From positions 1 to 42,496 of IMG/VR virus record IMGVR_UViG_3300045970_000056: 42,496 bases of DNA, one strand, 5' to 3'. The notes under the pieces are model-generated. The model saw nothing but the letters and a program-made list of their open reading frames with translations, was not told where the DNA came from and made no database searches. This document shows, in pieces, positions 2,257 through 26,850 of the stretch. Within the stretch, counting starts at the first letter, position 1, and every line of letters begins with the position of its first letter. This DNA comes from a virus. The position numbers and the translations under genes were made by a program.

Positions 2257-2888
2257 CCTATGAGGAAATAGTCAGCACCTCACTGGCTTATGCAGATAGG
2301 CAAGATGTTGCTGTGATTAGTCGTGTCGATATATTTATGCGTATGGCTGAGTCACGTATTAACCGGCTTTTAGTTATTGAGGATATGAGTATTCGTTACA
2401 TATTCTCAGAGCCTAATCCTGTTAATGGACGGTATGACTTACCAGCAGATTTTTCTGCTATTCGAGATATTGCTATAGTTGACTCACTTGATTCAAAGAA
2501 TAGGCTAACGCTTTCACTGATTAACCCAGAACAAATGAATACGGCCACCAGCACAGTTAATATTGATAATAGCCTAAAACATTTTTATCAGATATTGAAT
2601 AAACAACTTGTTATACAACCTCCTGTAATTGATGGCTCTAAGTATCTCGAAATAGTTTATTACGGGAATATAGCTCCATTGACGCTTGATAATAGTACTA
2701 ATTGGATATCTAACAATCATCCTGACTTATATATTGATGGCATTCTTGTTGAGATTAATGCATTTATAAAGGATGCTGAAGCGGCTGCTTTATGGGATGG
2801 GCGATTTAAACAAGTTATTGATGAATTGGCGAATGCTGACAACCTTCTTGTGTATAGCGGTTCAAGTCTTCAAACACGGGTTGGATAA
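2253..2888 (+). CDS. Head-to-tail adaptor protein
   Basis: The 211-residue protein resembles the phage adaptor family that docks under the portal in short-tailed phages. Supporting signs are an N-terminal helical region (YEEIVSTSLAYADR ... RMAESRINR), a central beta segment with YDLPADFSAIRDI, and a C-terminal helical bundle including HPDLYIDGILVEINAF and AALWDGRFKQVIDEL. This order is typical for the family. It overlaps the upstream gene by four bases and is followed one base later by an HNH endonuclease that separates it from the tail fibre genes. The family call is from pattern memory. Confidence 0.65.
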   Translation: MTYEEIVSTSLAYADRQDVAVISRVDIFMRMAESRINRLLVIEDMSIRYIFSEPNPVNGRYDLPADFSAIRDIAIVDSLDSKNRLTLSLINPEQMNTATSTVNIDNSLKHFYQILNKQLVIQPPVIDGSKYLEIVYYGNIAPLTLDNSTNWISNNHPDLYIDGILVEINAFIKDAEAAALWDGRFKQVIDELANADNLLVYSGSSLQTRVG

Positions 2889-2889
2889 T

Positions 2890-3423
2890 ATGAAATTTAT
2901 TAAGTTGCCATCCGTAGAGTTTTTAAATAAATCATTGTCTTATAATCCTGATACTGGAAATATATTTCGTTTGACAGGAAGGTATAAGGGGGCTATTGCT
3001 GGGGCTGTAAGTGTAAAAGGAAGACACGTTATAGATTTAGTCATTGATGGAAAAACCGTTAAATTTTATTCAGCAAGAATAGCTTGGAAAATATTTTACA
3101 AAGAAGAGCCTACTTCTCAAATTGATCATATTAATGGCGATAAGTTAGATAATAGAATTTGTAATTTAAGAGCGGCTACAAATTCAGAAAATCAATGTAA
3201 TACGTCAAAAAGAGATAACTCTAGACCGTATAAAGGTGTTTTTAAACGGCGAAACGCCAAAGGAAAGCACTATAAAGATTGGACATATCAAATTAGGTTT
3301 GATTATAAACTTTATCAGGTTTCTGGGTTCGCTACTGCTGAAGAAGCATTTGAAGCCAGATGTGCTTTTGGTAAACAATTACATGGCGATTTCTATAACG
3401 CTGGAGGTGTATCATCGCTTTAG
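2890..3423 (+). CDS. HNH homing-type endonuclease with AP2-like DNA-binding domain
   Basis: The 177-residue free-standing endonuclease starts at the ATG at 2890, one base after the adaptor stop. The N-terminal 70 residues resemble the DNA-binding part of phage HNH proteins. The HNH core is at about 77-104 (IDHINGDKLDNRICNLR, then ENQCN), with His80 as the likely catalytic residue. Residues 113-175 look like an AP2-type DNA-binding domain (YKGVFKRR ... GFATAEEAF). Such genes nick or cut homing sites and spread as selfish elements. It is wedged between adaptor and tail fibre, overlaps the fibre 5' end, and provides that gene's ribosome binding site. Confidence 0.9.
   Translation: MKFIKLPSVEFLNKSLSYNPDTGNIFRLTGRYKGAIAGAVSVKGRHVIDLVIDGKTVKFYSARIAWKIFYKEEPTSQIDHINGDKLDNRICNLRAATNSENQCNTSKRDNSRPYKGVFKRRNAKGKHYKDWTYQIRFDYKLYQVSGFATAEEAFEARCAFGKQLHGDFYNAGGVSSL
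3403..3407 (+). promoter_or_regulatory. Strong ribosome binding site ahead of an ATC start
   Basis: GGAGG lies inside the end of the HNH gene. It sits 6 bases before the ATC at 3414, which is optimal spacing for initiation there. No ATG, GTG or TTG lies near it in the tail fibre frame. Confidence 0.6.
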
Positions 3424-9253: not shown

Positions 9254-9684
9254 GTCAATACCGATTTGAAATATTGCATCCTTATACCATGATTAAGATA
9301 TGGGATGACTTATTGCCCCATATAGAGCGCGTGGTTGCTATTGGGCATGGTGAGTTTTCCGCTGAGTCTATCAAGCAAAAGGTATTAAATAACCGTGGCT
9401 TTATAATTGCAGTCTATGAAGGTGACGTTATTAAGGCTGTCAATACAGCGGAAGTAGCTGTATATGATAGCGGTTTGCGCTCGTTACTTATCCCAATATT
9501 TGCAGGTGATGGTCTTAGGGATTGGGGGCCAGAATGGCTAGAAATACAAAGGGGTATTGCTATTTATTTTGATTGCAAAGAGATAAGGGGATTTGCCGTT
9601 AGGGATGGCTGGGAACGCATTTTAAAGGATTATAATTTTAAAACAACGTATTCCGTCATCACCATGCCGGTAGGAGAAGAGTAA
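9250..9684 (+). CDS. Putative GNAT-fold virion-region protein
   Basis: The ATG at 9250 (ATGA overlap with the upstream stop) gives 144 residues; an upstream in-frame ATG at 9214 is less likely. Alternating helices and strands with a C-terminal GWERILKDYNFKTTYSVITM segment recall acetyltransferase-fold proteins found in the internal-protein region of T7-like phages (gp13 type). I cannot identify a clear acetyl-CoA-binding loop, so enzyme activity is doubtful. It precedes the internal protein genes. Confidence 0.45.
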   Translation: MSQYRFEILHPYTMIKIWDDLLPHIERVVAIGHGEFSAESIKQKVLNNRGFIIAVYEGDVIKAVNTAEVAVYDSGLRSLLIPIFAGDGLRDWGPEWLEIQRGIAIYFDCKEIRGFAVRDGWERILKDYNFKTTYSVITMPVGEE

Positions 9685-10574
9685 TGGGAAGTTCAACTAA
9701 CAGTACCAGTGGAATACAGGGTGGACAAAGTACCTCTCAGAACTCCCGATCTGGTGGCAGTACCTTTGGGCAGGGTGTATTTAATGAAGGTGCGTTAAAT
9801 AGCCTCTATGGAAGCGCACAGAATTTATACAATCAGGTATCAGGGACACAGCAAGGAATGGTTCCTGGCGCTGTAAACTTTCAGAATCAGCAAGCTCAAG
9901 GCGCGGCTAATGCTAATTCTGGGATGCAACAGGGTGGCGTTTACGGTGGCTTAGGCATTGGTAATCAGTTAATGGACTCGTTGCGACAATCTCAGAATAC
10001 TCCTTCTAATATGCAAGAAGTTAACCGCATGATTATGGGAGGGAATGGCAATACGTCACTTGATGCGATGAAAGGGAGTCTTGAGGCGGATGCGGCACGT
10101 GCTCAGAACTTGAATCAAGCGGGTAATGCTGCACAGGCTGCTGGTGTGGGGATGTCTGGGAGTAGCCGACAGGGCGTTATGGATGCACTGGGCAAGAATG
10201 ATATCAATAGGGGATTAATGGCTAATGAGGCAAAATTGGGTTATGACAGTTTCAACAGTGATTTACAACGTAAGATGGATATAGCTTCCGCTGCCGATAC
10301 TAATACCTTTAACCGTCAACAATTAATGTCAGGTATGCTCGGGCAACAACAAGGTGCAGTGAATCAAGGAATTGGTAATACCACAGGTGTTCAGCAAGCG
10401 GGAATGGGGCAGTTTAATGCCGCTAATCAGCCGTGGCAGGGACTGCAAAATTACCAGAACACCTTAGGCGCACCAACGGTGCTTAATTCTGGTTCTAGTT
10501 ATAATACGGGGCAAGGTTCACAGAGCGGATCAGGATGGGGAACTACGCAAAATTCTGGTGGTACGAAAGGCTGA
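9684..10574 (+). CDS. Putative internal or ejection protein, Gly/Gln/Asn-rich
   Basis: The 296-residue protein is of low complexity: Ser/Gly/Gln-rich ends flank a central helical section (about 120-215) with AQAAGVGMSGSSRQGVMDAL and FNSDLQRKMDIA. Flexible Gly/Gln-rich proteins with a short helical core just upstream of a muramidase-bearing protein are typical of podovirus ejection proteins, which form a conduit across the cell envelope. No sequence family is certain. The stop overlaps the next start by one base (TGATG). Confidence 0.5.
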   Translation: MGSSTNSTSGIQGGQSTSQNSRSGGSTFGQGVFNEGALNSLYGSAQNLYNQVSGTQQGMVPGAVNFQNQQAQGAANANSGMQQGGVYGGLGIGNQLMDSLRQSQNTPSNMQEVNRMIMGGNGNTSLDAMKGSLEADAARAQNLNQAGNAAQAAGVGMSGSSRQGVMDALGKNDINRGLMANEAKLGYDSFNSDLQRKMDIASAADTNTFNRQQLMSGMLGQQQGAVNQGIGNTTGVQQAGMGQFNAANQPWQGLQNYQNTLGAPTVLNSGSSYNTGQGSQSGSGWGTTQNSGGTKG

Positions 10575-11457: not shown

Positions 11458-13270
11458 TGATCCTAATGCAGGGCTAAGTACCATGCTTTCATTCCTTCAA
11501 CAGGGTTCTAATGCAGGAAATGATCCACTACCACAAATGCCAGATTATACTAGCATAAATATGCCTGCTCCACAACAGCAGCAACATCAGGGTGGTAATG
11601 GCTTTGGTGGTGTACTAAAAGGACTTCTTGGTAATCTTACAAGTCAGTATTTAGGATATAAACTAAAATCATATACTGATAAGCAAGATAATGAAGAATT
11701 TGGTGCTGCCCTTAATAAAGGTATTGAATCACAAATGAGCACTGTTGGTAAAGATAGTGCTTTTTATCCTATTTTAAAAAATGCTCTTAGTTATCCTAGT
11801 AATGAAATTGGCAATAAAAATAAACATGATTCATTAAATTATATTAATAATGCTTTAACATCTGCTGCGACTCCAACAGCAAATTATAAAGATGCCACAA
11901 ATTCAGTAACAGCACCTACTTACCAACGTCATTTTAAGAATATTGGTGCATCAGATGGCACTGAACGTAATGCTGATGGCAGTTTATCTGATATACCATA
12001 CAATCATACACCTGGTAGTTTAATAGACTATAAAGCACAAATTGCCCAAAATCAAAAAGCTTCACCTCCTGGTGCCAATCCAGAACAGTTGGCTTTATCT
12101 AAAGATCGTAATAGGATTGCGCAAGAAAGTTTAGATGCTAGATTACATCCACCATTAAAACTTGGCCCCGGTGAAGAAGTTGATCCATATAATCAAGGTA
12201 GTACAAGACTTAGAACTAATTCACCACAATGGATTGTTGCTAGTCAAAAACATGAAAAAGATTGGCAACAAAAAGAATTTATTAATACTAAAGCAGATAT
12301 AGCACAACAAAAAATTAAAAATATATTAGACCCCAAAAATAAGTCTGGGTTTGAACGTAATTTTGGTAGTAATTATAGTGGTTATTTAACTAGTCAATTT
12401 CCAGATGCTGTTGTTGTTAGAAAAGAACTTGACGATTTAAAAGATTCTTTGAAAAATGCTGGTTTAGATATGATGAAAACTGGCGGCTCTATTGGTGCCA
12501 TGTCAGTACAAGAATGGCCAATAGTACAAGGTGTACTTGGTTCTATTACACCTGGAATGCCCGAAGATGAAGCTAGAACTAAATTACAAGAAGTAAACGA
12601 TAGACTAGAAGTTATACGTAATCTTGGCACTAATAGTTATGATACTGGATGGTCTAATAGTCAGTTTTATAATCCAAAAACATCTAAACAGATACAGAGA
12701 GAAAAAGAGGATGCTCTAAAGAACAAAGATCAGCCAGAACAGTCAGGTGGTACAGGCCAACAAGGTGCTAAAAATGTCTATAATTATGGTAATCTACGAC
12801 CATCAAAATCTTCTGGTGGGTTTCAGTCTTATAAAACTCCAGAGGAAGGCATAGCAGCTATTGGTAACCAATTAAAAATATATGGTAACAGAGATGGTAT
12901 AAACACAATTGCTGGTATTGTCAATAAATGGGCACCAGAAAGTGATGGTAATGATGTTCAAGCATACATTAAAAGTATTTCACAGACAACAGGCTTAGGC
13001 CTTAATGATAAAATAGACTTAAATGATCCAGCAATGGTGCATATGATTACTGCTGGAATTATGAGGAAAGAAAGTAATAAGTGGAAAAAATCCAGTCAAC
13101 CTACCAAACAACCAGCTCAAGTTGCTCAATCAGATCAACAAATGCCAGATCAACAAACAGGTCCATTACAGACTAAATCAAAATTTACGCCAACACAATT
13201 TGGCACTAATAAAAAGAATGGTAGAAAATACTTTATAAATGCTGATGGTAAGCCGGAGTATGTACCATGA
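11450..13270 (+). CDS. Internal virion protein with muramidase-like domain
   Basis: The 606-residue protein has a Gln-rich N-terminus, a long helical middle, and a domain at about 440-550 resembling virion-associated peptidoglycan hydrolases. That domain reads YNYGNLRPS ... GFQSYKTPEEGIAAIGNQLKIY ... INTIAGIVNKWAPESDGNDVQAYI, then KIDLNDPAMVHMITAGIMRKE. This is the usual NPGNLR-like, WAP and closing helix pattern. It likely opens the cell wall locally at infection. It is the only wall hydrolase I can identify, so it might also serve in lysis. Codon use is more AT-rich than in the genes just upstream. Confidence 0.65.
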   Translation: MANDPNAGLSTMLSFLQQGSNAGNDPLPQMPDYTSINMPAPQQQQHQGGNGFGGVLKGLLGNLTSQYLGYKLKSYTDKQDNEEFGAALNKGIESQMSTVGKDSAFYPILKNALSYPSNEIGNKNKHDSLNYINNALTSAATPTANYKDATNSVTAPTYQRHFKNIGASDGTERNADGSLSDIPYNHTPGSLIDYKAQIAQNQKASPPGANPEQLALSKDRNRIAQESLDARLHPPLKLGPGEEVDPYNQGSTRLRTNSPQWIVASQKHEKDWQQKEFINTKADIAQQKIKNILDPKNKSGFERNFGSNYSGYLTSQFPDAVVVRKELDDLKDSLKNAGLDMMKTGGSIGAMSVQEWPIVQGVLGSITPGMPEDEARTKLQEVNDRLEVIRNLGTNSYDTGWSNSQFYNPKTSKQIQREKEDALKNKDQPEQSGGTGQQGAKNVYNYGNLRPSKSSGGFQSYKTPEEGIAAIGNQLKIYGNRDGINTIAGIVNKWAPESDGNDVQAYIKSISQTTGLGLNDKIDLNDPAMVHMITAGIMRKESNKWKKSSQPTKQPAQVAQSDQQMPDQQTGPLQTKSKFTPTQFGTNKKNGRKYFINADGKPEYVP

Positions 13271-15179: not shown

Positions 15180-16220
15180 TTATGTTCTAAAATACTTAGC
15201 GACAGGATGAAATGGCACTCCATCATTGGTATATTCAAAGAACTCTACATTAACAATTCTACCAATATAATCGCACGAGTTAATAAGTATTTCAATCTTT
15301 TCATCTATATTCCCTGGTGCTGATACTCTGAAATATCCTCCTGTTGGTAATTGACATTCAAGAACAGCCCAACCATCTTTTGATGCTATAATATTAGTTA
15401 TTAAAAACTCAGCATCTAGCCATTTTTTAATTTTAATAAGACTTTTACTACGTTTACCAGCTTCATAACCAGTGTCATTGGTACGTAGTATGAGGCCTTC
15501 ATAACCAGCAGCAATAGAAGCTCGTAAATTTTCCTCTATATCTTTGACACCAGGAAATAATGTTGGTGCTACCTTAACACTTTCACTAACAAATTCATAT
15601 TCCATTATTCGTTCTAATCTTTGTTCATAAGGATTATTAATAATAGTATCATAAATAATATAGTCTAACTTATCATTTCCAGGTTGAATTTTTTTAATGA
15701 GACTACCTGCATCTTGTAGTGCCATACCATGCACATAAAGCTCTCCATCTAAAATAACGCCTGGTTGTATACCAATACTATCAGTTATATGTTTAATAGT
15801 ATTGATCTGTTTACCATTGCGGGAATAAGCTATTGGCCCTTCTTCAGTTCCCATAATTAGGCACCGATGACCATTATACTTATACTGCACAAAGCACTTC
15901 TTAAAATCAACTTTTGAGTCTTTTAATTGTTGCGCTAGCATAGGCTTTAAGAGCTTGCTTGCGTTCAAGCCTACCGATTGCCTTGCTTCTTCGATTGTGT
16001 AGCAGTAGCCCTTGTCTAATTGCTTATTTACCCTAGAATTTACCTGCAAAGCAAGCTGTTCGTCTAAATTACGCCCCGATTGATTAATTGATATATTTTC
16101 ACGCTTAGACTGCATTGATCCATTAAGCTGGCCCCACTCTATCAATATACTTTTTGCTTCTTCAAATATTGTCCATATTTGAATAGCGTTTGTAGCTGTA
16201 ACTTTGTATAATGTTACCAT
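15180..16220 (-). CDS. ATP-dependent DNA ligase
   Basis: The 346-residue enzyme seals nicks by lysine adenylation. The start is the ATG at 16220, with AGGA seven bases upstream. The N-terminal 90 residues resemble a WGR-like DNA-binding region (IEWGQLNG ... GRNLDEQ). The adenylation motif is K114-YNG, with Asn in place of the usual Asp, followed by DGELYV (motif III), YEGLILR (motif IV) and SLIKIKKW (motif V). The C-terminal part forms an OB-fold domain ending YFRT. It is the last gene of the leftward block, coupled to two tiny membrane-protein genes. It would act at replication, joining lagging-strand fragments. Confidence 0.92.
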   Translation of the reverse strand: MVTLYKVTATNAIQIWTIFEEAKSILIEWGQLNGSMQSKRENISINQSGRNLDEQLALQVNSRVNKQLDKGYCYTIEEARQSVGLNASKLLKPMLAQQLKDSKVDFKKCFVQYKYNGHRCLIMGTEEGPIAYSRNGKQINTIKHITDSIGIQPGVILDGELYVHGMALQDAGSLIKKIQPGNDKLDYIIYDTIINNPYEQRLERIMEYEFVSESVKVAPTLFPGVKDIEENLRASIAAGYEGLILRTNDTGYEAGKRSKSLIKIKKWLDAEFLITNIIASKDGWAVLECQLPTGGYFRVSAPGNIDEKIEILINSCDYIGRIVNVEFFEYTNDGVPFHPVAKYFRT

Positions 16221-16221
16221 T

Positions 16222-16317
16222 TCAATCCTTATTAATATAAAGCACTGCGACAACATACGTTAGTAGTATCATGCCAACAAAAATTAAGAATACCGATTCT
16301 CCATTGCAAGCATTCAT
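16222..16317 (-). CDS. 31-residue membrane peptide
   Basis: The peptide starts immediately after the upstream stop (TAAATG) and ends one base before the ligase ATG. It has a short polar N-terminus and one clear membrane segment (FLIFVGMILLTYVVAVLYI) followed by NKD. The tight packing between two genes supports real translation. Function is unknown; single-span peptides in phages are sometimes inner-membrane lysis or host-takeover factors. Confidence 0.6.
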   Translation of the reverse strand: MNACNGESVFLIFVGMILLTYVVAVLYINKD

Positions 16318-16494: not shown

Positions 16495-16838
16495 TTGCAG
16501 TCCTCGCAATCTTGGTAACTATAACGCCCATTTCTCAAGGCAGGTTGGCAGAATAGTATATGCATCAGGGTTTTGCCTGAATACACGAATACTCGTTTTG
16601 GTTGTCTAACACCCCATACATCTTTTTCATTGGGCTGTTTATGTGATTTTGATCGTTTCTCCGTGGTGTTTAATTCCTCAATAAAATATTCACCTGCATT
16701 CCTATCATAGTAGATGTGATTGCCTATACGGATAGGTGATAACTGTGTATTCTTAATACAGAGCTTCCTAACCGTTTCTATGGGCAGTCTTGTTCTTTCA
16801 CGTATTTCTTGTCTAGTTATATATTTTTCAGTATCCAT
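16491..16838 (-). CDS. HTH DNA-binding protein (excisionase/MerR-like N-terminus)
   Basis: From the ATG at 16838 the protein has 115 residues. The first 55 match small winged HTH proteins: YITRQEIRERTRLPIETVRK, then a PIRIGNHIYYDRN wing. The C-terminus is basic and ends with a CEDCK motif. An upstream in-frame ATG at 16865 lies inside a terminator hairpin, so I prefer 16838. A conserved promoter and the hairpin precede it, giving a leader of about 95 bases. It could be a middle or late transcription regulator, possibly the factor that reads the conserved promoter motif; that is speculative. Confidence 0.6.
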   Translation of the reverse strand: MDTEKYITRQEIRERTRLPIETVRKLCIKNTQLSPIRIGNHIYYDRNAGEYFIEELNTTEKRSKSHKQPNEKDVWGVRQPKRVFVYSGKTLMHILFCQPALRNGRYSYQDCEDCK

Positions 16839-16848
16839 AATAAACTCT

Positions 16849-16877
16849 AAAAATAAGGCGGTCATGACTCCGCCTTA
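16849..16877 (-). terminator. Rho-independent terminator or attenuator
   Basis: On the minus strand the stem TAAGGCGG... pairs with CCGCCTTA (16854-16861 with 16870-16877) around an 8-base loop and is followed by TTTTT at 16853-16849. It lies downstream of the modification operon but also inside the leader of the HTH gene. It can therefore end the operon, attenuate the HTH gene, or both. Confidence 0.75.
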
Positions 16878-16902
16878 ATAAGTGTGCCGACAACTGAGAG
16901 AC

Positions 16903-16919
16903 ACCTAGCCGGCTTAGGT
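16903..16919. promoter_or_regulatory. Palindrome in the HTH gene leader
   Basis: ACCTAGCCGGCTTAGGT is an imperfect palindrome with arms ACCTA/TAGGT around AGCCGGCT. It stands between the conserved promoter at 16939-16969 and the terminator at 16849-16877. It may be an operator or the upstream hairpin of an attenuator. Confidence 0.45.
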
Positions 16920-16938: not shown

Positions 16939-16969
16939 ATTATATCATATAATGATTAATAAAGATACT
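16939..16969 (-). promoter_or_regulatory. Conserved phage promoter (copy 1)
   Basis: On the minus strand this reads AGTATCTTT-N13-TGATATAAT, an extended -10 element with a conserved upstream block. It lies just after the dCTPase-like gene and should drive the HTH, membrane protein and ligase genes. The predicted RNA start is near 16932. Confidence 0.65.
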
Positions 16970-16973
16970 TATT

Positions 16974-17369
16974 TTAATACCCATTATTTTGTCTACTTAT
17001 ATTCTTCCCAAATTTTATAGTATATTCACTATCTATATTATCTGGTGTTATGCCTGCTGCTAGGCATATATTAAGGCAAAAGCATAACATATCTATAGCT
17101 TCTTCTCTTATATTGCAGTTTGATACATACCTTTTATCCGCTAAATCAGTATATTTTGTAGACCATGGCTTTAATATGGATCTATTATCATTACTAATTG
17201 CAAGTATTATTTCTGTTATTTCTTCATTAAGGTAAGATTGTTGGTTTCTTATATATTCAACTACTTCGCCACATGATAAATCTACTGAACTTGATGGATT
17301 GTGGTGGCTACCATAGTTATCTGCAATTTTTCTTAGTAAAAGTTTTTGATTACTTAATATTTTATTCAT
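16974..17369 (-). CDS. All-alpha dCTPase/dUTPase-like pyrophosphatase
   Basis: The protein has 131 residues from the ATG at 17369, which overlaps the upstream stop (ATGA). It shows the metal-binding pattern of the dimeric dUTPase/MazG superfamily: EExxE at 49-53 (LNEEITEI), EExxD at 89-93 (REEAID), and the family's C-terminal signature KFGKNISRQNNGY at 119-131. These enzymes hydrolyse dNTP to dNMP and pyrophosphate. In an operon with a hydroxymethylase and a kinase, the likely job is to destroy dCTP (perhaps also dUTP) and supply dCMP, as T4 gp56 does. Substrate choice cannot be read with certainty. It is the last gene of the operon. Confidence 0.8.
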   Translation of the reverse strand: MNKILSNQKLLLRKIADNYGSHHNPSSSVDLSCGEVVEYIRNQQSYLNEEITEIILAISNDNRSILKPWSTKYTDLADKRYVSNCNIREEAIDMLCFCLNICLAAGITPDNIDSEYTIKFGKNISRQNNGY

Positions 17370-18109
17370 AATGGTGCTTCTAATAGCCATTTACCAAAAT
17401 CTGATTCAAATTTACAAGTTAATAGATCATTTACACTTGTTATAGGTGGATAATATACATATTCTTTTATATCAGCAAATATAATATGTTCTGCCATACC
17501 GAATTGGTAATCATATATATGTAATGAATCGGCAGAAAATACAAATATGCCTGTTTTAAGCCCAAGTATTCTAGCTATCATTTCCCATAACCACCAGTAT
17601 GTTGGCAAGTCTGCGCCTAGACCGAATATTGCATCGGAACTACGAAACTTAACATGTATATTTAATTTACCATCAACTATTCTAAATTGTGGACCAACAG
17701 AACATACAACATCTTTATTGCCTGTAAATAAATGTTCTTTACATAACATTGGTATTATCGCCTGTCTACTATATGGGTCATTAATTAATGTATTAACAAC
17801 CCAATCTATGCCATTTGGGAACCAATATTGTCCATAGTTAGAAAATATTTTACCATCATCTTGTACTATTTTATTCCATGTTTTTGCATACTTACATATT
17901 CTTGTATCATATGGGTTAGCATTTAAGTACCACTGAAATTCTCTTTTAACATAGTCAAGATTAAAGTTTCTACCTTCATAATTAGACCATGGATCAGTAA
18001 TAATACCTTGGAAGTACTCTATCTCTCTTATCAGTTTACCACGAGGGCTGGTTTCTTTGCCGGTGGTAAACACTTCTGTTATTATATCTAGCACATCATA
18101 TTGTTTCAT
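17366..18109 (-). CDS. Thymidylate-synthase-fold dCMP hydroxymethylase (predicted)
   Basis: The 247-residue protein carries the thymidylate synthase core: NYGQYWF at 91-97, DPYSRQAIIP at 111-120, catalytic Cys136 in VCSVGPQF, RSSD at 156-159, and the HIYDYQ dUMP/dCMP-loop at 197-202. Spacing is exact: Cys to Arg is 20 residues and Cys to the pyrimidine-selecting residue is 31, as in E. coli thymidylate synthase (Cys146, Asn177). Here that residue is Asp167. T4 dCMP hydroxymethylase also has Asp (Asp179, Cys148). I infer dCMP plus methylene-tetrahydrofolate gives 5-hydroxymethyl-dCMP. A good ribosome binding site (AAAGGA) precedes the ATG, and it overlaps both neighbours. Confidence 0.82.
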   Translation of the reverse strand: MKQYDVLDIITEVFTTGKETSPRGKLIREIEYFQGIITDPWSNYEGRNFNLDYVKREFQWYLNANPYDTRICKYAKTWNKIVQDDGKIFSNYGQYWFPNGIDWVVNTLINDPYSRQAIIPMLCKEHLFTGNKDVVCSVGPQFRIVDGKLNIHVKFRSSDAIFGLGADLPTYWWLWEMIARILGLKTGIFVFSADSLHIYDYQFGMAEHIIFADIKEYVYYPPITSVNDLLTCKFESDFGKWLLEAPL

Positions 18110-18582
18110 AGTCTTTCCTTTATTAAATCTATAATGTAATATAAATAATCTGTTTCATAATCATAATATATAACATCATGAAATGCCATTACTTCATCGT
18201 ATCTATCCCTTAATAGTATATTATCTTTTATTAATTGTACTTTATGAATTTCAGAATACTTATCTTTTAAAACTATATTACCAACATGGTTGCAATATAT
18301 TAAAATATACCTATCTGATAATTCTTTAGCAAGGTTATCTAAGAATCTATTTTCAATAATACGTCCATTACCATATACTTGTTCTGAAAACAGTGTGGTA
18401 CGATCTAATATTACACCACTATCTATCATAGCAATTTGTGTATTTAAGCATGATAATAATTCTAATGCATTATTTGGGCCTAGTCCTGAGTGGTAATAGG
18501 TTTTATCAAAATGTTTAGTTAATTCTTTAGCTAATGTAGTTTTACCACTACCATTCATTCCGCATACTATTATTGCTTTCAT
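18106..18582 (-). CDS. P-loop deoxynucleoside monophosphate kinase (predicted)
   Basis: The 158-residue kinase has Walker A GMNGSGKTT at 8-16, a DR motif at 60-61 (ILDRTTLFSEQVYG) typical of nucleoside monophosphate kinases, and an Arg-containing lid near RDRYDE. It follows the carbamoyltransferase directly (its ATG touches the TAA) and overlaps the hydroxymethylase. By analogy with T4 gp1 it should phosphorylate 5-hydroxymethyl-dCMP to the diphosphate, leaving the last step to a host kinase. An alternative is the kinase type that phosphorylates hydroxymethyl bases already in DNA, as in thymidine hypermodification; the small size and thymidylate-kinase look make the first more likely. Confidence 0.75.
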   Translation of the reverse strand: MKAIIVCGMNGSGKTTLAKELTKHFDKTYYHSGLGPNNALELLSCLNTQIAMIDSGVILDRTTLFSEQVYGNGRIIENRFLDNLAKELSDRYILIYCNHVGNIVLKDKYSEIHKVQLIKDNILLRDRYDEVMAFHDVIYYDYETDYLYYIIDLIKERL

Positions 18583-20151
18583 TTATACCTCTACTAATGT
18601 TATTGTACGTTTTTCATAATCCCGTATTTGTTGAAATGAATGATTCATTATTACATCTTGTATATCATATACAATTGGTTGGCCATGCACATTAAAAGAA
18701 GTATTTATAAGTATTGGAAACTTTTTAAGTATACCATGCATATAATGACCTTCGTCAATAACTTGTGGCCTACCAGAAAAAACACCACGAAGATTATAGG
18801 CAGCACCTATCATTCTATCATTAACATAATTATATTCTAAAGCTATTATCATATGTTCGACAGACCTAATTATATTGCATGGTTGATCGAATACTTTATT
18901 ATAAGTAAAACGGTTCATAACTGGGCATAGTGGCATTACTTCATGCCGCTCATTTAGATGCCCAATATATTTTGCATTACGTTCTGTTGGTAAGGCAATT
19001 GTGCTTGTATTACAATAAGCTCTCTCACCAAATTCCATTCTATCTATTACTACATTCACGATTCTATCAAAGCATAGGTGTTCATACAAATCTTTAGCAA
19101 GATGTTCTGTAAATATTAAATTACCAGCAGAAGCATATTTAGTTTTATCAATTTTTGGTCGTATGCCAAAACAAAGATCATCTTGTATTACAAAGTCATT
19201 ATTATATATTTTGTATAGTCCAAGGCCAGCACCACAATCACCAGATAATGGCATTATGCATATGGAATCCACATAATGCGCCAGGTAACCGTTTAATTGT
19301 ACATTCATAAAGCAACCGCCAGCTAATAATAGATTCTTTATATTGTATTTTTGTATTATATGCCTAAATATCTGTTGTACAACTTCTTGTAATACAGTTG
19401 CTATTATTGGTGCATCATTTTTTGTAAAATACATGGATAAAAATTCATGCACATATTTATGCATTTTAACCAATTCTGTTAAACTATAGTCATCTGCATT
19501 ACGTTTATACATATTATACATAATAATACCGTATAAAACATCTATAATATAATTAGCATTATTTAAGTCTTGATGTGTAGTAGATGCTGCTAAAGCATTT
19601 AGTTTCCATTCGTCTTGGTTCATTTTAAAACCACAGAAGTCTGTAGCATATTGGTACCATAGACCTAATGAAGCAAGATAATTTTTATATGTATGTATAG
19701 GAATAGCACAATCTTCATCAACTTCATATATACTTGTGACTTCGCCAAGATTGCCAAAACCATCTGCAACTATTATATGTGTGTTTGGTTGTATTTTATC
19801 TTTTGCATAAGCCATAGCTGAATACGCATGGGCATCATGATGTGTGTATATATAATTTGATGATATGAGTTTCTTACCTTTAACAAAATCTGGATGAAAA
19901 TGTTTTTTGTTCATTTTAAACACATCACCAGTTGGTTCCCAATGTGATATGTATATAGTAACATCATCTGGTATTACATGGAACTTCTCAATTTCTTGTA
20001 TTGCTTGTATAGGAAATTGAGAATCTGACTTGATTTTTGTTATTCTCTCATTTTGGTAGCCATTTACTACCTTATTATCTTGTATTGCTATTGCACTAGA
20101 ACCATGCCCTAGCGTTAATACTAATGAATCTATTGTAAGTTTATCTATCAC
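18583..20151 (-). CDS. NodU/TobZ-family O-carbamoyltransferase
   Basis: The 522-residue enzyme starts with GTG at 20151 (AAGG upstream). Family motifs occur in order: GHGSSA at 15-20, NERITKIKSDSQFP at 34-47, the metal site HHDAHAYSA at 104-112, DGFGNLGE at 130-137, AGGCFMN at 277-283, DCGAGLG at 305-311, EFGERA at 373-378, and NTSFN in the C-terminal domain at 483-487. Known members use carbamoyl phosphate and ATP to place a carbamoyl group on a hydroxyl of a sugar or antibiotic. Next to a hydroxymethylase, the likely acceptor is the hydroxymethyl group of the modified base in DNA or nucleotide. It is the first gene of the operon, about 20 bases from a conserved promoter. Confidence 0.92.
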   Translation of the reverse strand: MIDKLTIDSLVLTLGHGSSAIAIQDNKVVNGYQNERITKIKSDSQFPIQAIQEIEKFHVIPDDVTIYISHWEPTGDVFKMNKKHFHPDFVKGKKLISSNYIYTHHDAHAYSAMAYAKDKIQPNTHIIVADGFGNLGEVTSIYEVDEDCAIPIHTYKNYLASLGLWYQYATDFCGFKMNQDEWKLNALAASTTHQDLNNANYIIDVLYGIIMYNMYKRNADDYSLTELVKMHKYVHEFLSMYFTKNDAPIIATVLQEVVQQIFRHIIQKYNIKNLLLAGGCFMNVQLNGYLAHYVDSICIMPLSGDCGAGLGLYKIYNNDFVIQDDLCFGIRPKIDKTKYASAGNLIFTEHLAKDLYEHLCFDRIVNVVIDRMEFGERAYCNTSTIALPTERNAKYIGHLNERHEVMPLCPVMNRFTYNKVFDQPCNIIRSVEHMIIALEYNYVNDRMIGAAYNLRGVFSGRPQVIDEGHYMHGILKKFPILINTSFNVHGQPIVYDIQDVIMNHSFQQIRDYEKRTITLVEV

Positions 20152-20176: not shown

Positions 20177-20207
20177 ATTATATCAAAATTTTACTATCAA
20201 AGATACT
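20177..20207 (-). promoter_or_regulatory. Conserved phage promoter (copy 2), drives the modification operon
   Basis: The minus strand reads AGTATCTTT-N13-TGATATAAT, beginning right after the helicase stop codon. A 22-base stretch here (20193-20214) is identical to 26057-26078. The -10 ends 26 bases before the carbamoyltransferase GTG, giving a leader of about 20 bases. Confidence 0.7.
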
Positions 20208-20208
20208 A

Positions 20209-21558
20209 TTATTTTTTAAAATAATCTAGTAAAAAAGTCTGGAATGACTCTTTACCTTCTAGTATTTTTAGTACATGCTCATCTACAGTATCTTTAGCTA
20301 TGATATGATGTATAGTTACAGATTTTTTAATACCTTGTCTATAGACTCTATCATTGGTTTGTATATAGAGTTCTAAATCAAACGTTAAACTGAACCATAC
20401 CACATCTTCACAACCACCATATTGTAGGTTTAATCCATGGCTAGCAGATTTTGGTTGTATAAACATCACTGGTATTTCACCGCGATTCCATTTATCAGAG
20501 ACTTGTTGTAAATTTGTATTTTTATCTATCAGTTTTGGTGCTTGTGGAAAGGCTTTTTGTAACTCTGCTAGATCATGTAAAAACTCATAAACTACCAATA
20601 ATGGCCTGCCATTAAGGTCTTCAACCAGAGTTTTAATGGCCTCGACCTTTTCGTCATGCAGATGCAATACTTGCCTATCTTCTAAGTACACATTACCATT
20701 AGCTATCTGTTTCAATTTAGATGCTTTAGCCGCTGCATTAACAGAAAATATAGGTGACTTTTCATCTAGTTCAGATTCTAAGTCATCTTTTACTGCTTTG
20801 TATCTAGCTTTAACACTTAATGGTAATTCTATATAGATGTTATTATATAGTATTGGTGGTAAATTGAGTTCATCTTTACTTTTATGCATTACAATATCAT
20901 TTATTGCTGCATAAATCTCTGTTTCAGCATCAGGGAATAATTTAAAGTCATATGGATTATAAGAGTTTGGTTGGTAAAAATATTTTGTTCTAAAATGTGT
21001 AATATATTTTGATAACCTTTTACCCATATCTAATAGGTAAATCTGTGGCCAAAGTTGTATCATACCATTTGGTGCTGGTGTACCAGTTAATATTAATCTA
21101 CGTTTGAATTTTGGTAACACTGCTTTAATAGCTTTAAATCGCAATGATGTGTGATTCTTGAATAAGGTAGATTCATCAAATACACACATAACTGTCTTTT
21201 TGTCAAAAAAATGTATATGTTTAGTTAATAGCCAGTTTAATCCTTCAGGATTTATAACATAAATATCATAATGTTTTTTGATAGTAATATCTTTATCTTT
21301 ACCATGCAAAACACCAATGGTTAGGTGTTTAGTATGATCCCACTTTTTAACTTCATCTGGCCATACTAATGTAGCTACTTGTTTTGGTGCTATAACGAAT
21401 AATGTATCTACATCATTGTATTCTTTAAGTATTGCAAATGTAGATAATGTAATTACTGTTTTACCAAGACCTGGTGGCAAGAAAAGACCGGCATAATGCC
21501 GGCCTAATATCCATTTAATACCATCATCTTGGTAGTGATGTGGATAGAATTTAGCCAT
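20209..21558 (-). CDS. SF2 (SNF2-like) DNA helicase
   Basis: The 449-residue ATPase has Walker A PPGLGKT at 28-34, a DEAD-box variant DEST near 127-130, and the LTGTP motif (RRLILTGTPAPNG). The second RecA-like lobe has SASHGLNLQYG and QTNDRVYRQGI, the motif V and VI region with the arginine fingers. This is the compact SNF2-like helicase type common in phage replication or recombination modules. It likely remodels forks or branched DNA. It overlaps the upstream gene by 8 bases. Confidence 0.88.
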   Translation of the reverse strand: MAKFYPHHYQDDGIKWILGRHYAGLFLPPGLGKTVITLSTFAILKEYNDVDTLFVIAPKQVATLVWPDEVKKWDHTKHLTIGVLHGKDKDITIKKHYDIYVINPEGLNWLLTKHIHFFDKKTVMCVFDESTLFKNHTSLRFKAIKAVLPKFKRRLILTGTPAPNGMIQLWPQIYLLDMGKRLSKYITHFRTKYFYQPNSYNPYDFKLFPDAETEIYAAINDIVMHKSKDELNLPPILYNNIYIELPLSVKARYKAVKDDLESELDEKSPIFSVNAAAKASKLKQIANGNVYLEDRQVLHLHDEKVEAIKTLVEDLNGRPLLVVYEFLHDLAELQKAFPQAPKLIDKNTNLQQVSDKWNRGEIPVMFIQPKSASHGLNLQYGGCEDVVWFSLTFDLELYIQTNDRVYRQGIKKSVTIHHIIAKDTVDEHVLKILEGKESFQTFLLDYFKK

Positions 21559-23950: not shown

Positions 23951-24216
23951 ACTACTAACCTAAATTTATTTATACGAGGCTTGTTTAACCTATTATTTTC
24001 ATCAATTATTTTTTGTAAAGTATAGCCGTACTCTATTAGTTTTTTGTCTTTCCATGGTTTTTGTGAGTATTGATAGTAATATGCTTTATTGCCATAAACA
24101 TAATGTGCTCCATAATGCGCAAAACTACATTTAGGGCAGCCATCAATATGCTTGTTACTAAATATCCATTTACAACTAGCGCATACCCTTAATTTTGCCA
24201 ATTTTCTAGTCATCAA
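23947..24216 (-). CDS. Zinc-ribbon protein
   Basis: The 89-residue basic protein has CASCKWIF and CPKCSF knuckles 15 residues apart in the first half, and a Tyr/Lys-rich C-terminus. It overlaps the DNA polymerase end by 11 bases and the Cas4-like start by four. It is likely a small nucleic-acid-binding accessory of the replication module; no family is recognised. Confidence 0.6.
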   Translation of the reverse strand: MMTRKLAKLRVCASCKWIFSNKHIDGCPKCSFAHYGAHYVYGNKAYYYQYSQKPWKDKKLIEYGYTLQKIIDENNRLNKPRINKFRLVV

Positions 24217-25984
24217 TATATTCCTTCAAATCTGAAAAGTTATAACCAGTAGAGCCATCAGATACCAGAGGGCAATCAAGGCCAGGTATTTCATCCATAG
24301 CCCATTTTAGTATCTTCATCTCTGTATCAACATCATCTGGATTACACTCTAATACCAATTCATCATGCACAGTCATTAATAGCTCGCCTTTGCGGTCTGG
24401 GTGGTACCAATACCGTATCATCGATTCTTTGGTGATGTCTGCACTGGAACCTTGTATTAATACATTACCTAATTTATAATAGAATTGCCGTCCATCTTTA
24501 GCCTCTTCTACATCATATGATCTGCCACCCCATGTTCTGATCTTCTTACCAGATTTAGATAACTTCTCTATGTCCTTCATTAATTGTTTAAACTCTGGTA
24601 AAGCCTCATCATAAGCTCTAAAGAATGCTCTGGCTGTTTCTATAGACACATTATATTTTCTAGACATGGCATCAGGCCCACCACCGTACAATTTTAAGAA
24701 GTTAATGATCTTAACAAAGAACCGACTGACCTCTAGGCCTGTCTTTTCTTTTATTATTGCACTAACGAATGCATGTATATCTGTTTTAGGGTCATCTTGA
24801 TACTTCTTTAATATGGCACCTTCAGCATAATGCGCGGCGACACGTAATTCTTGACCAGAGAAGTCACGACGAACGAATATCTTGCCTTCGGATGGCACAA
24901 TAACTGATCTAGCATGGAAGTCATCTTCTTCTAAGTTATGTTTTGGTAATTGCTGTATATTTGAAGAAAAACGGCCAGTTCTCGTGCCAAAATCACCTTC
25001 AGATCGTGTTTGATTATAATATGGATAGAATTTATTTTTATATAGTTTTGCTGATTCGTAGAATGGCTTTATATATGTACCTACTAATTTCTGTTTTTTG
25101 CTTCTATTCTTTAAAAGAGATGATAGATTAGGGTCACTTATAATGTCTTCTATGAAGTCTTTACCAATACGAGGCTTACCAGTTTTTTCTGTGTATTGAA
25201 CCTTAGACATATATATAAGGCCTCGTTTCTGTAATGCATAAAACATACCCATAGATCCAGGTTTAGCACCATTTGAATATGCCATTATCTGCATATCCAT
25301 TAGATTAAATGCTTTATTTTCTCTGTTGTATATTTCTCCAATGTTTGGTGCTATATTAATACCTCTTTGCTCCATGTCTATAACGATTGGTAATATACGC
25401 ATCTCTCTTTGAAATGCATCATATATATTTTGTTGACCTTCTATGATTGGTGCACTAAATATTCTAGGTGCTAAAGTCTGATATAGAATATAAGTTCTGT
25501 CTGTATCTGATTCAGCATATATACCAACAAGATCACCTGGTGCTTTACATATATCTTGGCCAGGCTTAAATCTTCTGGTCATTAGCCACTTATTTAAATT
25601 ATCTTGCTGTTCTGGCGGCATACCACAATATTTTTCTGTAAGTGGCTTGAGAGATAAGGAGGATTCACGAGGATCTATTAAATACATCATTATCATAGTG
25701 TCAATGATGCGGGATGGGTCTGGAACTGATAGACCAAAATGTTCTAAAGCAACTCTCAGGTCGAATTTAGAGTTATGGCATATTATTTTATCTTCTAAGT
25801 CCCATATATGACCTAATAATTGTGCCGCCTTATCTTTTGAGCAGTTATTATTAGTTGGATGGCCCCAGGCATAATAATAAGATGGGTTATTATTTAGTTT
25901 TATTGAGACACCAACTGGTATTGGTGAATAAGGTGAGCCATTTATTATTGCATGTGTCTCAAAATCAATTGTATATAGATTCAT
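24206..25984 (-). CDS. Family A DNA polymerase with 3'-5' exonuclease
   Basis: The 592-residue replicative polymerase has exonuclease motifs DFET at 7-10, NSKFD at 71-75 and a YAESDTD block at 156-162. Polymerase motif A is RRDFSGQELR (Asp374, Glu379). Motif B is R421-x3-K425-x3-F429-x3-Y433-G, identical in spacing to Taq R659/K663/F667/Y671. Motif C is VHDE at 539-542. The DFGTRTGRFSS template-binding segment is at 331-341. There is no 5'-nuclease domain. It must accept modified dCTP if the predicted pathway is right. AAGGA stands before the ATG. Confidence 0.95.
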   Translation of the reverse strand: MNLYTIDFETHAIINGSPYSPIPVGVSIKLNNNPSYYYAWGHPTNNNCSKDKAAQLLGHIWDLEDKIICHNSKFDLRVALEHFGLSVPDPSRIIDTMIMMYLIDPRESSLSLKPLTEKYCGMPPEQQDNLNKWLMTRRFKPGQDICKAPGDLVGIYAESDTDRTYILYQTLAPRIFSAPIIEGQQNIYDAFQREMRILPIVIDMEQRGINIAPNIGEIYNRENKAFNLMDMQIMAYSNGAKPGSMGMFYALQKRGLIYMSKVQYTEKTGKPRIGKDFIEDIISDPNLSSLLKNRSKKQKLVGTYIKPFYESAKLYKNKFYPYYNQTRSEGDFGTRTGRFSSNIQQLPKHNLEEDDFHARSVIVPSEGKIFVRRDFSGQELRVAAHYAEGAILKKYQDDPKTDIHAFVSAIIKEKTGLEVSRFFVKIINFLKLYGGGPDAMSRKYNVSIETARAFFRAYDEALPEFKQLMKDIEKLSKSGKKIRTWGGRSYDVEEAKDGRQFYYKLGNVLIQGSSADITKESMIRYWYHPDRKGELLMTVHDELVLECNPDDVDTEMKILKWAMDEIPGLDCPLVSDGSTGYNFSDLKEYIDD

Positions 25985-26076: not shown

Positions 26077-26850
26077 TTAACTCATTTTACTTCGTTTAAC
26101 AGTAGATGCATCCGCCTGGTCTAATGGCACATAGTTAGATGTGTCATACGGGCCAGATACCGCAGCAGTATATTCAGTTAGAGATTTAGAAATTTTGCTG
26201 ATAGTGTCTGGATCGGCTGTTGTTATGTACAGTGGTACAATACTCGGCCAGGCTGAGTCATCATCGAATGTTAGTTTGGTAACCACAGCCCATGTCGGCA
26301 GCTTGTGCACCACAGTGATATTCTTAGTGTATCTCGCATAGGCTTTTAATGAGGTCGGTGGTATATTGATGATGGCTAGATCACCAAGGTTTGGTTGGTA
26401 TTGGTCATGATCCAGTTTAGTTACAGCAGCCACCAACAGACGACGACCATTACGGCATGCTTTACCTTTGCCATTCTTGGCAGAACCGAACTCATTCTTT
26501 GGGCAGGTGTTGCATGATGCTGATTGCTTATCTGGCGAGGTCTCATGTGGTGTCATTTCACTTAAGACTGAGTTGATGGCAAAACATGCTGGTGGTGTGA
26601 TAGTGTCTGGATCATAGTCACGGTCATAATATGAATGATCGTACATATCTGCTAAGATCACCACATCTAAAGTTGTGCCTAATTTTTCATCACCTATCGA
26701 GAACTTCTTGCCTTTAATAGACATGTACGGTATTGAGGATATCTCTGCCGCACCTTGATCTTCGGCAGCCTTTGCTAATAATTGTTTAACCTCGTCTGTT
26801 AGGACGATTTGTTGGCCACCTAATTGTTGTGTTGCTACTTCAGTTGTCAT
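26077..26850 (-). CDS. Phage replication-region protein with Cys cluster
   Basis: The 257-residue protein has a Cys-rich stretch SASCNTCPKNEFGSAKNGKG followed by KACRNGRRLLV at about 108-140, which could bind zinc. Beta-rich flanks and an acidic region follow. This type of protein recurs beside phage DNA polymerases and may bind single-stranded DNA or assist recombination, but I cannot name a characterised family. AGGA precedes the ATG. A strong terminator follows the gene. Confidence 0.6.
   Translation of the reverse strand: MTTEVATQQLGGQQIVLTDEVKQLLAKAAEDQGAAEISSIPYMSIKGKKFSIGDEKLGTTLDVVILADMYDHSYYDRDYDPDTITPPACFAINSVLSEMTPHETSPDKQSASCNTCPKNEFGSAKNGKGKACRNGRRLLVAAVTKLDHDQYQPNLGDLAIINIPPTSLKAYARYTKNITVVHKLPTWAVVTKLTFDDDSAWPSIVPLYITTADPDTISKISKSLTEYTAAVSGPYDTSNYVPLDQADASTVKRSKMS

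Follow-up and report, generated by a model that had tools for sequence, protein, structure and literature searches.

The virus record IMGVR_UViG_3300045970_000056 from IMG/VR, which we analyzed over its whole length of 42,496 bases (the window), carries at 16974-20151 on the (-) strand an operon that very probably encodes a complete pathway by which 5-carbamoyloxymethylcytosine (5cmdC) takes the place of cytosine, as judged from sequence comparisons. The initial annotation had described four genes packed on one strand: a carbamoyltransferase (CT), a P-loop kinase, an enzyme of the thymidylate synthase (TS) fold, and an all-alpha dNTP pyrophosphatase. We confirmed the open reading frames of all four, and the coordinates are right, with neighbors that abut or overlap by 4 bases. 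The four families were also correctly assigned: matches in Pfam and PHROGs are clear for CT and TS and weaker for the kinase and the pyrophosphatase. The genes, in the order of transcription, are:

18583-20151, (-) strand: predicted 5-hydroxymethylcytosine O-carbamoyltransferase (CT), 522 amino acids, GTG start (from Pfam, PHROGs, clade, and motifs)
18106-18582, (-) strand: P-loop (d)NMP kinase, proposed hydroxymethyl-dCMP kinase, 158 amino acids (from phrog_761 and the fold of the structure model)
17366-18109, (-) strand: predicted dCMP 5-hydroxymethylase of the TS fold, 247 amino acids (from PF00303 and C136, S137, and D167)
16974-17369, (-) strand: all-alpha dNTP pyrophosphatase, proposed dCTPase similar to T4 gp56, 131 amino acids (from T-even matches and phrog_173)

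The stop codon of CT directly precedes the ATG of the kinase, with zero gap; the kinase stop and the TS start share 4 bases (ATGA, 18106-18109), and so do TS and the pyrophosphatase (17366-17369). We placed the start of the pyrophosphatase at 17369 (131 amino acids) rather than at the mechanical call of 17390 because the protein of a sister phage, on the contig IMGVR_UViG_3300045747_000093 (L134), begins with MNTILNHQRLLL, compared to MNKILSNQKLLL in the window. Chance does not account for these genes being neighbors, since other phages, at 33-40% identity, have the cassette as well.

The substrate of the pathway is indicated by the TS-fold enzyme. Yang et al. (2021, eLife 10:e70021, PMC8670742) reported that CT, TS, and PRA-PH genes are associated on contigs with modified cytosine from sewage phages, and that two features mark the TS on these contigs: position 177 (Escherichia coli numbering) is Asp, and position 147 has changed, so that it is no longer His. 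The window's enzyme matches PF00303 (Thymidylat_synt, 6e-18), and when it was compared to solved structures, the CMP hydroxymethylase MilA (54.6 bits, the best match) and the dCMP hydroxymethylase of T4 (gp42, 46.0 bits) ranked above thymidylate synthases. Its triad of C136, S137, and D167 aligns with C148, T149, and D179 of gp42. More broadly, all 37 TS sequences (the window's and 36 CT-linked homologs) have Cys as the catalytic residue, Thr or Ser at position 147, and Asp at position 177. Just one other sequence shares the window's Ser at position 147; the remaining CT-linked enzymes have Thr. The same three positions in a true thymidylate synthase segment are Cys, His, and Asn. This is strong evidence that the predicted substrate is a cytosine nucleotide. 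As to whether dCMP or CMP is preferred, MilA and gp42 are both close, and the sequence does not decide.

The CT has both of its domains intact (Carbam_trans_N, 4e-22; Carbam_trans_C, 3e-18) and matches phrog_1601 (5e-54). It aligns over its full length with its relatives, its frame is intact, and the THHDAH motif is kept. Using tblastn against phage records, we found full-length relatives at 32-34% identity in Xp15, HHU4, MD-2021a, Effie, and Bacteroides phages, and more distant CTs in cyanophages. Scans of IMG/VR with CT or TS as a single sequence found zero relatives, so alignment queries were needed; these identified 24 CT loci in IMG/VR, with Xp15 again among them. Genome bins contributed 22 CT loci, and two of these (L111 and L112) belong to the same clade as the window's CT. 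In a maximum-likelihood tree, the window's CT lies inside a phage clade of 30 rows with support of 100/100, while cellular CTs and cyanophage CTs branch outside it; the rows exclude the CT that was assayed in 2021.

Gene neighborhoods give the same picture. TS adjoins CT in 30 of the 31 clade loci (in the remaining one, the contig is truncated), and the kinase does so in 18 of 31. With the same models, TS or kinase was found at none of 26 control loci (20 cellular and 6 from other phages). Several of the phage CTs from outside the clade sit among genes for glycosyltransferases and sugar-nucleotide metabolism. The residues that differed most between linked and unlinked CTs in the 2021 study correspond to W408, G421, and R423 of TobZ (PMC8670742). 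At these positions the window's CT has V, C, and T; Thr replaces R423 in all 30 clade rows, and G421 is mostly replaced by Cys, whereas G421 and R423 are both kept in all 21 alignable cellular CTs. (TobZ numbering was mapped via motif spacing in homologs, and the comparison set was cellular CTs.) These comparisons support the assignment of this protein to a clade of phage CTs that accompany predicted dCMP hydroxymethylases. The chemistry of such an enzyme has been described: with carbamoyl phosphate and ATP, a purified phage CT converted 5-hydroxymethyldeoxycytidine (5hmdC) in DNA, as well as 5hmdCTP, to the 5-carbamoyloxymethyl product in vitro (PMC8670742). The purified enzyme had no activity on 5-hydroxymethyl-dUTP (5hmdUTP) or 5-methyl-dCTP (5mdCTP), and it preferred single-stranded DNA (PMC8670742).

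Among phage proteins, the pyrophosphatase best matches those of the T-even type (31-35% identity over 98%, with E values down to 2e-13 by tblastn), and several of these are annotated as dCTP pyrophosphatase. The translation includes the metal motifs EExxE (EEITE) and ExxD (EAID), and it matches phrog_173 (4e-10). In Pfam, dUTPase_2 and PRA-PH fall slightly below their cut-offs; in a search of the genome, PRA-PH had an E value of 1.3e-4 and 17.6 bits, which is below the cut-off of 21.3 bits.

The kinase is recognized in Pfam by its P-loop only. In PHROGs it matches phrog_761 ("thymidylate kinase", 5e-10), as do all 15 of the 15 members of the kinase family. The structure model (predicted local distance difference test score, or pLDDT, of 91.8) has Bacillus subtilis YorR and thymidylate kinases as its nearest solved folds, and the P-loop (GMNGSGKTT) is kept along with the D60-R61, S66, and Y70 positions. 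The initial annotation had likened this protein to gp1 of T4, but we did not find homology to gp1 beyond the P-loop, with just a weak match in PHROGs to phrog_139 ("deoxynucleoside monophosphate kinase", E = 0.14); the protein instead resembles thymidylate kinases and YorR. The kinase more likely helps to make the hydroxymethylated nucleotide than takes part in the carbamoyl step, because its relatives in two other phages, Pseudomonas phage PMBT14 and Gordonia phage Gibbous, are found together with a dCMP deaminase, a pyrophosphatase, and a TS that has the Cys/Thr/Asp signature. Both of these phages also have a gene that is unknown to Pfam directly before TS (PMBT14, L136 6959-7744; Gibbous, L137 6206-7111), and these two genes are candidates for another decoration of 5-hydroxymethylcytosine (hmC).

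The four proteins can be arranged into a pathway. Judging from its homologs, the pyrophosphatase would convert dCTP to dCMP, which would both remove the normal base and supply the substrate. The active-site residues of the TS-fold enzyme suggest that it would convert dCMP to 5-hydroxymethyl-dCMP (5hmdCMP), and the fold of the kinase suggests that it would form 5hmdCDP. Triphosphates are supplied by the host's nucleoside diphosphate kinase, which would convert 5hmdCDP to 5hmdCTP. The phage's family-A polymerase (24206-25984) would then incorporate the modified base. CT would use ATP to activate carbamoyl phosphate as carbamoyl-adenylate and would transfer the carbamoyl group onto the 5-hydroxymethyl group; its substrate would be either 5hmdCTP or the single-stranded DNA of the replication fork. 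DNA with this neutral carbamate would then be shielded from restriction. We infer the substrate specificities of this phage's four enzymes, the extent of substitution, and the shielding from restriction.

The chemistry of carbamoylated hmC, as originally proposed, is thus supported by the TS active site, the homology to T-even dCTPases, the nucleotide-kinase fold, and the clade of the CT. The initial annotation also had carbamoylation as the terminal decoration. The reaction is known in vitro for a related phage CT, but carbamoylation may precede polymerization rather than being the last step on DNA, because free 5hmdCTP is also a substrate of the published CT. A more specific scenario has 5cmdCTP made before replication and used by the phage's own polymerase, with the operon as a self-contained module that phages swap at a fixed slot for other nucleotide-modifying cassettes; we view this combination as possible but rather doubtful. 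No glycosyltransferase was found among the window proteins that were scanned, with some small open reading frames outside the scan.

Several observations weigh against a 5cmdC pathway in this phage. The window's CT is just about 34-40% identical to its nearest relatives. There is no dCMP deaminase in the window, while 19 of 31 searched records have one. Avoidance of palindromic sites is no weaker in the window than it is in the sister phage, which gives no sign of relaxed restriction pressure (the observed/expected ratios for GC-rich 6-mer palindromes are 0.61 and 0.70, respectively). Also, the sister phage lacks CT, TS, and the kinase yet keeps the pyrophosphatase, so the role of the pyrophosphatase is not exclusive to the pathway, and this gene alone is no mark of 5hmdC modification.

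We considered whether the base could instead be uracil, with the TS-fold enzyme being a dUMP hydroxymethylase and CT carbamoylating 5-hydroxymethyluracil in a thymidine-type hypermodification. TS-fold dUMP hydroxymethylases and DNA-base kinases do exist in other phages, and the kinase here is an uncharacterized P-loop protein. But Asp at position 177 and Thr or Ser at position 147 are present in all 37 TS sequences, the solved structures nearest to the TS are of enzymes for cytosine nucleotides, and the kinase model resembles mononucleotide kinases; with the published CT inactive on 5hmdUTP (PMC8670742) as well, we regard this as very improbable. We give as little weight to RNA or ribonucleotides as the target, with a MilA-like TS acting on CMP and carbamoylated hmC ending up in RNA. 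MilA is the best solved match of the TS, and the published CT is weakly active on RNA (PMC8670742). Against this, the scores for MilA and gp42 are close (54.6 versus 46.0 bits), the operon includes a homolog of dCTPases, and it lies in a replication block with helicase, polymerase, and ligase.

The CT might also have nothing to do with the genes beside it: it could be a NodU/TobZ-like enzyme for a sugar, a lipid, or a small molecule that is next to a 5hmdC operon by chance. Some other phage CTs, such as those of cyanophages and XacN1, do have genes for glycosyltransferases and sugar-nucleotide metabolism around them. However, those CTs are outside the window CT's clade and have TS at none of 6 loci, while this clade has TS at nearly all loci, and the searches we made of the window turned up no sugar gene. 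This explanation is very unlikely too. Somewhat less improbable, but still unlikely, is that virions contain 5hmdC whose carbamoylation is incomplete or absent. With denatured T4gt DNA, about 30% of the sites escaped modification by the published CT, and its reaction with duplex DNA was several-fold slower (PMC8670742). In the window, though, the CT frame is intact, its motifs are conserved, and it is the first gene of the operon. Replacement of cytosine by 5cmdC remains our preferred reading.

The sister contig shows what can take the place of this operon. It shares most of its genes with the window, and its replication and head genes are 67-90% identical at the protein level (helicase, 89%; terminase, 87%; major head, 89%; primase, 69%). 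The pyrophosphatases are 54% identical. CT, TS, and the kinase were not found in the sister contig. Its corresponding slot, between a promoter-like sequence after the helicase and the pyrophosphatase, encodes a nucleoside deoxyribosyltransferase, a YfbR-like HD hydrolase, a DUF6378 protein, and a ThyX-family protein; a dCMP deaminase follows the pyrophosphatase, and with it the replacement genes lie at L134 16913-19799. The motif of the sister's ThyX is RHRMFTFSAQCSDR, which differs from the usual RHRxxSxNExSxRY. The sister's cassette may be another base-modification cassette. Because it occupies the same promoter-to-pyrophosphatase slot, comparison of the two genomes indicates that the modification is a swappable module, and that whole cassettes for nucleotide metabolism are exchanged around a common pyrophosphatase.

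Elsewhere, the record has genes for terminase, portal, scaffold, major head, and tail proteins. The nearest named relatives of the terminase are from Vibrio phage vB_ValP_VA-RY-3, Cronobacter phage vB_CsaP_Ss1, and Burkholderia phage BcepC6B. The operon is housed in a (-)-strand replication block that also includes an exonuclease and a primase. Other features of this region are:

15180-16256, (-) strand: DNA ligase, replication block
16854-16913, (-) strand: structured intergenic element downstream of the operon, ending in a terminator-like hairpin (16854-16877)
20177-20185, (-) strand: TGATATAAT, candidate -10 element just upstream of CT
20209-21558, (-) strand: SNF2-type helicase, replication block
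24206-25984, (-) strand: family-A DNA polymerase, replication block

That the operon is behind one promoter, as first proposed, is plausible. TGATATAAT is enriched in the window (8 copies, compared to 1.8 expected) and is present upstream of CT, but a general promoter scan of the window was at chance level (52 found, 47.7 expected). The eight copies are at 16939, 20177, 22842, 23245, 26041, 30246, 30270, and 32147; several are directly upstream of gene blocks and look like a -10 element that these blocks share. The context of TGATATAAT, AGTAAAATTTTGATATAAT, also precedes the sister phage's replacement cassette. The intergenic element, CCTAAGCCGGCTAGGTGTCTCTCA...GGCGGAGTCATGACCGCC with TTATTTT after it, is kept in the sister phage (L134, at about 16655-16720 on the (-) strand). 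An Rfam search of the region, this element included, gave no match.

We also considered a protein of 257 amino acids (26077-26850, (-) strand) that has no Pfam match and has conserved C113, C116, and C132. Its predicted structure is poor (pLDDT of 59.7). In 15 related loci, a homolog is the gene immediately upstream of CT. We rejected it as a specific fifth gene of the pathway: the family is common in contigs outside the CT search results. Perhaps it is a replication accessory or single-strand-binding protein. Among the structural genes there is an HNH endonuclease gene (2773-3423, (+) strand), whose mechanical open reading frame overlaps the end of the SU10-adaptor gene.

The 5cmdC prediction of the initial annotation is not new: it restates what Yang et al. 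had published. This kind of system and its 5cmdC product were already described in 2021, and the window is a new, compact example: an apparently co-transcribed set of putative 5cmdC genes in a phage of about 42 kb. In the literature on 5cmdC in a named virion, we found the 2021 paper only; two papers from 2026 on hmC and defense mention carbamoyl groups in passing. What our analysis adds are the residue- and clade-level tests, a list of cultured phages, and the cassette swap with the sister phage, in which the modification chemistry would be exchanged en bloc between a common promoter-like sequence and a common pyrophosphatase. Like the 2021 system, the window has a two-domain CT, a TS with Asp at position 177, and a PRA-PH-type pyrophosphohydrolase as a neighbor. 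Unlike that system, it has CT, kinase, TS, and pyrophosphatase in one operon of touching genes and has no dCMP deaminase.

The same gene set occurs in cultured phages, namely Xanthomonas phage Xp15 and the Acinetobacter phages MD-2021a, Effie, and HHU4, which have CT, a PRA-PH pyrophosphatase, the kinase, TS, and a ligase in a replication block, as the window does. Their order is CT, pyrophosphatase, kinase, TS, and dCMP deaminase, whereas the window has CT, kinase, TS, and pyrophosphatase and is deaminase-less; also unlike these four, the window's terminase is nearest to those of podovirus-named phages. Bacteroides phage BF503P2 has a CT and two TS-fold enzymes and no match to the window's kinase or to PRA-PH. 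More generally, Bacteroides-type phages (L005, at 9456-10259 and 12336-13013, and L016, L017, and L021-L023) have two genes resembling TS-fold hydroxymethylases beside one CT, and both carry the Cys/Thr/Asp signature. With these related genes, Xp15, Effie, HHU4, and BF503P2 are candidates whose virion DNA could carry 5cmdC.

Compared to the hmC pathway of T4 (gp56, gp42, gp1, and glucosyltransferases), the window's pathway follows the same logic with a homologous dCTPase and hydroxymethylase; it differs in that the decoration would be added by a CT instead of a glucosyltransferase, in that the kinase resembles thymidylate kinases and YorR, and in that the genes form one operon. Similarly, the window's CT shares its two-domain fold family and HHxxH motif with the O-carbamoyltransferases TobZ, GdmN, and NovN, but its phage clade has Thr at the R423 position and mostly Cys at the G421 position, and its predicted substrate is a nucleotide base rather than an antibiotic.

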